DNA of 36,247 nt from Methanobrevibacter sp. (GTDB lineage Archaea; Methanobacteriota; Methanobacteria; Methanobacteriales; Methanobacteriaceae), in contig NZ_JAFUHT010000048.1 of the NCBI RefSeq assembly GCF_017468685.1, positions 1-36,247 on the forward strand, given 5' to 3'. The notes beneath the pieces were generated by a model that saw nothing but the letters and a program-made list of their open reading frames with translations, did not search any database and was not told the DNA's origin. Position 1 is the first letter of the stretch. Each line of letters starts with the position of its first letter. Below are positions 7,725-9,206 of this stretch, one piece after another. Both the position numbers and the translations under genes were made by a program.

Positions 7725-7742
7725 TTATTCCTATATTTTTTT
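7715..7742 (+). terminator. Hairpin plus T-run at the argH stop
   Basis: GGAAT (7716-7720) and ATTCC (7727-7731) pair across a six-base loop that contains the argH TAA. A G-T closing pair flanks the stem and a T7 run follows at 7736-7742. It has the same layout as the S27ae terminator. Confidence 0.6.
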
Positions 7743-7755
7743 AAGTTTTTCGGAT

Positions 7756-7782
7756 GTTTAGGTATACCTAAACTTTATATAC
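7756..7782 (+). promoter_or_regulatory. 18-bp palindromic operator fused to a TATA box, no gene downstream
   Basis: GTTTAGGTATACCTAAAC at 7756-7773 is a perfect palindrome. It resembles DtxR/MntR-type metal boxes, which have TTAGG/CCTAA arms. It abuts a TATA-like TTTATATAC at 7774-7782, covering the place where TFB would bind, so a bound regulator would be expected to repress. Transcription would begin near 7803 and run right. No convincing protein gene follows on this strand before the convergent zinc-ribbon gene. The regulator assignment is inference from similarity. Confidence 0.6.
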
Positions 7783-7802
7783 TTTTATGAACAAATTATT
7801 AT

Positions 7803-7940
7803 TGTGGATGTAATCTTTTGATTATTGAAGCATGATAGTTGAACGGAGATATTTATAGAAAACTTATTAATTGTTCCTCAATGAATTCAATAAGTAAAGC
7901 TCAGCTTCTATTTATATCTCCCAACAACAATCATAATAAG
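7803..7940 (+). ncRNA. Candidate structured non-coding RNA
   Basis: The predicted transcript from the palindromic promoter could fold strongly. A small 5' hairpin TAATC-TTTT-GATTA lies at 7811-7824. A long outer stem pairs 7845-7860 with 7906-7921 (14 of 16 pairs, with two adjacent T-T mismatches). Inside it, ACTTATT (7862-7868) pairs perfectly with AATAAGT (7889-7895), and ATTG (7870-7873) pairs with CAAT (7879-7882) over a TTCCT loop. Open frames across it are short and unlike known proteins. Both ends are guesses: the start from the TATA box and the end from a weak T-rich stretch. It could also be a relic regulatory region of a lost gene. Confidence 0.4.
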
Positions 7941-7965
7941 TCTAATTTTCTAAAAAAAATAAATA

Positions 7966-8151
7966 TTATTCAGAATCTTCATGTTTTTGAGATTCTAAAT
8001 AGTTTTCATGAATTTCATCAGCCAAATCCTGGTTTCCTTCAATAATTGGTCCGGTATAGTCACAGTCATAGCAAACCCACTGGGACCAATTCTGTGGAAT
8101 AATCCATTTAACATTTCTAGATCCGCATCTTGGACAAATTTTATGCATCAT
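7966..8151 (-). CDS. Small zinc-ribbon protein
   Basis: The 61-residue product has two CxxC pairs, CPRCG near residue 7 and CYDCD near residue 28, making one treble-clef or ribbon zinc site. The N-terminal half (KWIIPQNWSQWVCYDC) is aromatic-rich and the C-terminal half is acidic and helical. It lies 41 bases downstream of the KH/PP-loop gene in the same direction. A TATA-like AATTATAACTT about 25 bases upstream and no clear ribosome binding site suggest a leaderless start, so either of two adjacent ATGs could be used. A T8 run just past its stop (minus strand, 7957-7950) is a likely terminator. The function is unknown. Confidence 0.8.
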   Translation of the reverse strand: MMHKICPRCGSRNVKWIIPQNWSQWVCYDCDYTGPIIEGNQDLADEIHENYLESQKHEDSE

Positions 8152-8192: not shown

Positions 8193-9206
8193 CTATTTGG
8201 TTTTGTAGAAACTCCAGATTAAATCAAGTGCTTCGCCGGGTTCAAGTGCACCTGAACGTGTTTCCCTAAGTATTCTCTGTATGGAAAATTTCTTCATATG
8301 AGGGAATTTTCTGTGAACCTCATATAATAGTGGACAGCCAAATCCTTTAAATGTGCTTAAATTATAGTTTTTGATTAAGGATTTTATCTCTTGTTTGCCA
8401 ACACTTAAACTTGCCGGCAGGTTCAATCGATATAATGAATCTTCCTGTAAATTTATGCATTGACTACCGGTTGCAAGCATATCACCAAAGATAATTATAG
8501 GTATTTCATTATCTTTTGCATATTGCTTAACCAGGTTGCCCGTATTTTTAGAGCATCTGCCACACGGATGAACATTTCCTGAGAATGCTTCAGAGACAAC
8601 CTCAGAATAATCTGTTCCAATGTATTCATGTTTAACATCTAATGATTCAGTAACAATTTTAATATTCTTTTTAAATTGATTAGGCAAAATTATTGTTCCA
8701 GGATCAATTGTAACTGCAATTGGATTGAATCCTAATTTTTTAGCTAAAATTAGTGAAAAACTGCTGTCAACACCACCAGATAATGCTACAACTGCTTCAA
8801 TTTTTTTAGATTCATTATATTCATGCTCTTTAAAATAATTGTCAAAATTAAAACTATAAATATTATCCAATTTATAATCAATTGTTTTTTCAAGATTTTT
8901 TAGTCCCACTAGGTTTAAATCAAGATTACTGATTGTTTTTTTAGAAAGTTTTAGTTTATAATTCTTGTTTAAAAAATCTCCATAAGATTCGACATGTATA
9001 CTGTCTAAGCCTAACTTTTCTCTGAGTTTTCCAACAACCCATCCTCCTTTACCTATGATTGCTGATTTATCAGGACGGTCTTCTGTAATGATCCATAGTT
9101 CGTTATTTTTAAAGTAGATTTCTTCAATGAAGATATTTACTTTGTCATGTCCGATTTCTTCACGTATTGTGTTAATTTCTTTTAATAGGAATTCTTTAGA
9201 ATACAT
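8193..9206 (-). CDS. KH-domain PP-loop ATPase, candidate RNA thiolation or modification enzyme
   Basis: The 337-residue protein joins two recognisable parts. Residues 1-75 look like a KH RNA-binding domain with the GxxG loop IIGKGGWVVGKL at 50-61. Residues 135-330 are a PP-loop adenylating ATPase with SGGVDS at 143-148, HPCGRC (Cys215, Cys218) and further cysteines near 250 and 293. Enzymes of the PP-loop group with CxxC pairs (TtuA/NcsA, TtcA) thiolate tRNA bases, and the fused KH domain suggests an RNA substrate. The substrate is not known to me. A TATA-like AATAATATAAC about 20 bases upstream and no ribosome binding site suggest leaderless translation. Confidence 0.85.
   Translation of the reverse strand: MYSKEFLLKEINTIREEIGHDKVNIFIEEIYFKNNELWIITEDRPDKSAIIGKGGWVVGKLREKLGLDSIHVESYGDFLNKNYKLKLSKKTISNLDLNLVGLKNLEKTIDYKLDNIYSFNFDNYFKEHEYNESKKIEAVVALSGGVDSSFSLILAKKLGFNPIAVTIDPGTIILPNQFKKNIKIVTESLDVKHEYIGTDYSEVVSEAFSGNVHPCGRCSKNTGNLVKQYAKDNEIPIIIFGDMLATGSQCINLQEDSLYRLNLPASLSVGKQEIKSLIKNYNLSTFKGFGCPLLYEVHRKFPHMKKFSIQRILRETRSGALEPGEALDLIWSFYKTK

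Follow-up and report, generated by a model that had tools for sequence, protein, structure and literature searches.

The 36,247-nucleotide stretch of Methanobrevibacter sp. DNA analyzed here (the window) contains, at positions 7803-7940 of the plus strand, what is probably a stand-alone gene for a noncoding RNA (family A) that is repressed by a DtxR-family regulator, made at low iron, and most likely acting in trans. The gene as a whole was recognized by folding, homologue searches and covariation.

The minimum free energy (MFE) of 7803-7940 is -33.3 kcal/mol, compared to -19.5 +/- 3.4 kcal/mol for 200 dinucleotide shuffles (z = -4.05), and none of the 200 shuffles matched the native value; thus, the nested, multi-part fold proposed in a preliminary description of this DNA is beyond chance. 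The same architecture was obtained for 47 of 47 homologues when folded singly (median z = -4.0, every z < -2). The outer stem (7845-7860 with 7906-7921) and the 7-bp stem (7862-7868 with 7889-7895) proposed in that description are found in the MFE fold exactly where they had been placed. The 5' hairpin is present as well, with its limits shifted (stem of 7810-7815 with 7820-7825, versus 7811-7824 as first given), and the fold contains an additional outer helix absent from the earlier description (7832-7836 with 7930-7934, and 7838-7841 with 7925-7928). Generic hairpins are frequent in AT-rich DNA, which would speak for the fold being a chance or mobile hairpin; the probability of this is negligible, given z of about -4 in all species, covariation, the single copy and the fixed site.

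Compensatory changes in related genomes, a check suggested in the preliminary description, were detected in both alignments that were used. For 36 homologues aligned by sequence only, pairing was observed in 89.3% of cells (35-46% in slid controls), both-side changes in 30 of 42 pairs, and a covariation score of 0.242 (0.145 for shuffles, and not above 0.080 for slid versions), where the cell counts represent sequences and not independent events, and where the double-changed pairs are spread over nearly all helices. The model alignment gave 94.0% paired cells, 33 of 41 pairs changed on both sides and a score of 0.315, values that are fitted and hence biased upward. The structure is under selection, and represents a conserved, independent noncoding structure. 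G-U pairs outnumber A-C mismatches by 110 to 25 in the homologues, which points to the plus strand as the RNA; the position of the TATA box, on the side of the operator that faces the RNA, also favors the plus strand.

The RNA comprises four helices, all on the plus strand. The 5' hairpin P1 (7803-7831; 7804-7805 with 7830-7831 in addition to the stem given above) has a purine-rich internal loop and is supported by the fold and by covariation, with 98% of cells paired and both-side changes in six of eight pairs (sequence-only alignment). The long outer stem P2 (7832-7934), supported by the fold and both alignments, consists of the additional outer helix and of 7845-7852 with 7914-7921; its changes are mostly compensatory, i.e. 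the sequence is free and the pairing is kept. P3 (7855-7911; AUAGAA 7855-7860 with UUCUAU 7906-7911) shows compensatory variants in the homologues, from UAGAA/UUCUA to UAGGA/UCCUA, UGGAA/UUCCA and others. Likewise, P4 (7862-7895; ACUUAUU 7862-7868 with AAUAAGU 7889-7895) has 97.8% of cells paired (sequence-only alignment), and the homologues carry ACCUA/UAGGU, ACCAA/UUGGU and ACUUG/CAAGU besides ACUUA/UAAGU. P4 is capped by the apical loop AAUUGUUCCUCAAUGAAUUC (7869-7888), for which homologue comparison and unpaired probability (0.87-1.0 for CCUCAA) point to an exposed, anti-Shine-Dalgarno-like CCUC; the UUCCUCA apical loop is confined to long forms of the RNA, and short forms carry other loops.

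P3 and P4 lie on either side of the invariant GCUCAGCU (7899-7906), whose positions 7899-7905 form an asymmetric bulge (or a mini-hairpin of 2-3 bp), with U7906 opening P3. As revealed by comparison of the loci, these eight bases are without change in all 46 tabulated loci and in one further locus (L280). In the window, the bulge may be closed as a GC-UCA-GC mini-hairpin, as judged by thermodynamics. Readings of the bulge as a T-loop, a kink-turn or a BHB motif were rejected because the defining bases are missing. An Rfam scan had also been suggested; when run with Rfam 15, 7803-7940 gave no match to a known family at the gathering threshold, and only minus-strand matches, all at chance level, at E <= 5.

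A small protein encoded here, with the fold as an incidental feature, is very improbable: an open frame of 68 amino acids (7839-8045) is found in the window, whereas across the 47 loci the longest frame has anywhere between 6 and 68 codons, with varying start and frame, and no conserved reading frame is shared across these loci, as expected from the earlier statement that no protein fits. Moreover, the length changes in loops and linkers are not divisible by three, and the substitutions are compensatory for pairing. A coding or mobile-element origin, which the preliminary description had named as a finding that would speak against an RNA gene, is rejected by the lack of a conserved frame in the 47 loci, the single copy and the fixed synteny.

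The element is present in 48 of the 67 genomes of the genus (species-level; metagenome-assembled genomes [MAGs] titled Methanobrevibacter sp.), and never in more than one copy per genome; one of the 48 carriers (G019) is identical to the genome of the window. A BLAST-type search of the 67 genomes with 7740-7960 gave many full-length matches, mostly starting at the palindrome. When 151 genomes of the order were searched with a first covariance model (ten sequences), 39 carried the element, every one in this genus, and a second model (35 sequences) detected 44 genomes in the genus; four carriers (G004, G005, G017 and G035) were added by reading the loci. At E <= 0.001, model matches in the 151 genomes were confined to this genus; one match in another genus (G120, E = 0.04) was discarded, as it was without operator-plus-TATA. 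A pattern scan of named genomes gave mostly unrelated chance matches, with at least five Methanobrevibacter MAGs among the matches listed; the public carriers among these are Methanobrevibacter sp. MAGs, several of them from rumen or rectum. The gene is missing from about one third of the genus and is thus not essential genus-wide. Among 17 genomes without a model match for which the neighbor gene was found, G004 has a diverged copy, and in the remaining 16 neither operator nor core was detected at the site.

The gene order argH - RNA - (zinc ribbon) - PP-loop ATPase is kept in 42 of 46 loci, and with short distances, which would be in agreement with a cis-acting element, i.e. an argH 3' UTR or an RNA antisense to a convergent gene (zinc ribbon or PP-loop ATPase). 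We consider this reading unlikely, since the RNA has its own operator and TATA box. In three loci (L026, L030 and L031) the PP-loop ATPase gene is located upstream and argH on the far side, and the RNA is kept together with its own promoter; that the promoter is kept despite swapped flanking genes argues for the RNA being a stand-alone gene. In 18 of 46 loci, a few of which have little flank, no zinc-ribbon gene was detected, and empty sites exist, with argH followed directly by the zinc-ribbon gene in several genomes without the RNA. The swapped flanks, missing zinc ribbon and empty sites argue against a role as argH 3' UTR, riboswitch or cis-antisense RNA; the gene that follows runs towards the RNA from the opposite strand, unlike the arrangement of a riboswitch or cis-leader. 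The PP-loop ATPase in the window (8193-9206, minus strand) has a CxxC motif, is distant from the TtuA, MnmA and LarE models, and is possibly a sulfur-transfer enzyme.

The promoter contains a palindromic DtxR-type operator, TTTAGGTATACCTAAA (7757-7772), which is conserved across loci and enriched in the genome, and a TATA box, TTTATATA (7774-7781, plus strand), one base 3' of the operator. The operator box TTTAGGNNNNCCTAAA is exact in all 46 tabulated loci and differs at its last base in the 47th (L280); a TTTAWATA-like box is found in nearly all homologues, one to three bases after TTTAGGNNNNCCTAAA. Because the operator abuts the TATA box, binding of a repressor would mask the BRE/TATA region; from the TATA spacing, transcription is expected to start near 7799-7804. 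The covariance model spans only 7798-7940 and the operator lies outside it, so that the operator and TATA box carried by all genomes found by the model only (G003, G038, G043, G046, G047 and G065) are an independent check. By its sequence, the predicted RNA is a candidate member of the metal-repressor-controlled class of small RNAs, with an operator at the promoter in all loci.

The TTTAGGNNNNCCTAAA box has 15 exact sites in the genome of the window, in comparison to none for a reversed control, and 2-18 sites in each of the 67 genomes of the genus, in comparison to 0-6 for the reversed pattern. A double box, i.e. two operators directly upstream, precedes the iron-uptake gene feoB in G052 (L241:1608 ff., reverse strand, G052:C96), and a one-mismatch box is located about 107 bases before feoB (identified by NCBIfam) in the genome of the window; another one-mismatch box lies ahead of the only Fe_dep_repr_C (DtxR-family) gene of this genome (L224). 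The box also precedes a heavy-metal P-type ATPase operon and ABC transporters. The metal control of the RNA that had been proposed earlier is thereby supported indirectly, through a box common to feoB and the DtxR gene. In NCBIfam, the DtxR-family regulator scores best against models of MntR and DtxR, with every score falling far short of the cut-off. A joint rise of DtxR and FeoB has been described in Methanococcus voltae, where the authors inferred that Fe(II) limitation was sensed (PMC8516115); this co-rise and the box at feoB and the DtxR gene make iron the likely signal, with manganese as the alternative.

At least two noncoding transcripts unrelated to family A share its promoter type. 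Family B, with the same operator and TATA box, is found at L185:1501-1705 (G000:C83:34778 ff.), and further at L038, L039, L040, L045, L046, L048, L233-L236, L238, L240 and L242; it forms a hairpin ACUCUUAAUUGAGG...CCUCAAUUAAGAGU whose loop contains the highly conserved AUAUAACUUUUCAACCUCAAUUAU, including an anti-Shine-Dalgarno-like CCUC, and has UUCUUCUGUC and a run of T downstream. Family C consists of hairpin-array transcripts in four copies in the genome of the window (L171, minus strand, G000:C8:8495-8580; L178:1501 and 1803, G000:C50; L182:1501, G000:C75), in which a pair of operators is spaced by about 70 bases, the one preceding the TATA box and the other forming a hairpin in the transcribed leader; the loops contain CUGCC, CUCC and CUCCUCC. 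Directly 3' of the family C array in L182 lies a gene for a MarR-type regulator (L182:1821-2267, G000:C75) with an iron-dependent-repressor-like DNA-binding domain (PF01325, 4e-7). The operator is also found ahead of genes for a small protein and a heavy-metal P-type ATPase (L176:1501-3016, G000:C45), a pair that we take to be reminiscent of the ferrosome genes FezA/FezB.

We infer that the family A gene is transcribed, that its metal is iron, and that its product is a regulatory sRNA. At sufficient iron, a metal-loaded DtxR-family repressor would cover the BRE/TATA region and the gene would be silent; when iron is scarce, the gene would be freed from repression and the RNA made together with FeoB. 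The RNA, of about 135-140 nt, would combine the 5' hairpin with a long, imperfect stem that carries the GCUCAGCU bulge, would offer this bulge, plus the CCUC apical loop in long forms, to a partner RNA or protein, and would act in trans in an iron-limitation (iron-sparing) response.

Candidate targets were searched for in the genome of the window. AGCTGAGC, the complement of the invariant bulge, has eight sites, of which one is the RNA itself and one a tRNA, with none at a start codon; similarly, AGCUGAGC has eight sites, none of them close to a start codon, and the 9-mer RAGCTGAGC has two sites besides the RNA, both coding, and thus no translation-start target. For the apical loop, TTGAGGAA before ATG gave 78 sites, mostly inside coding regions and none persuasive. 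As the only universal element is a bulge without a start-region target in this genome, binding to a protein or to a structured RNA has to be taken seriously as an alternative to base pairing: the RNA, still under iron control, might be a structured decoy or scaffold that binds a protein or small ligand via the GCUCAGCU bulge, which we regard as possible, if somewhat doubtful. Within the RNA only the bulge is invariant, with covarying helices on either side of it, and the 8-mer is identical to the 5' half of the D-arm of a tRNA of the same genome, a weak lead to tRNA-binding proteins. On the other hand, a GC-rich 7-mer that never changes although the genome is AT-rich also fits a pairing seed, and the bulge search covered full complement sites. 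A base-pairing, iron-sparing role like that of FsrA, IsrR or MrsI is plausible, given that CCUC is exposed in the long forms much as C-rich motifs are in FsrA and IsrR.

MrsI (ncRv11846) of Mycobacterium is an IdeR-controlled, highly structured iron-sparing RNA of about 100 nt near an IdeR site (PMC11188477), and is thus alike in being a structured RNA near the binding site of a DtxR-family iron repressor; it is, however, bacterial, with other sequence and fold, and targets bfrA and fprA, whereas the promoter of the window RNA is archaeal. FsrA (Bacillus) and IsrR (Staphylococcus) are, as proposed for the window RNA, iron-repressed sRNAs in AT-rich genomes, and base-pair with Shine-Dalgarno sequences through C-rich motifs that are single-stranded (PMC9410917). 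The CCUC apical loop of the window RNA resembles these motifs, but FsrA and IsrR are bacterial and Fur-controlled, and the C-rich loop of the window RNA is not universal, its invariant part being the GCUCAGCU bulge. RyhB and PrrF are similarly freed by a repressor at low iron, but are bacterial and Fur- and Hfq-dependent, and no sequence or structural relation to the window RNA was detected. Among methanogens, sRNA154 and sRNA162 of Methanosarcina mazei are regulatory sRNAs (PMC3177094, PMC3510493) of another genus, with sRNA154 in nitrogen control and not in metal control. Among the bacterial iron regulators covered in a 2022 review, DtxR is given without an sRNA (PMC9294342), and searches of the open-access literature turned up no iron-responsive RNA described for a methanogen. 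As a class, metal-repressed sRNAs are known from bacteria; as far as the literature was searched, there is no description of this RNA family, of its archaeal DtxR control or of the invariant bulge.

The Fe-S enzymes of methanogens demand much iron. If true, this reading would make the family A RNA the first candidate for iron-responsive regulation by an RNA in a methanogen, and a covariation-supported RNA with a DtxR-type operator in 48 genomes would provide a testable entry to post-transcriptional iron control. We tentatively suggest, as one conceivable reading, that gut methanogens use a DtxR-controlled set of noncoding RNAs with at least three unrelated folds, in which the GCUCAGCU bulge of family A would bind a protein or RNA in a manner for which the bacterial iron sRNAs offer no known parallel. 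The archaea concerned are the methane makers of animal guts.
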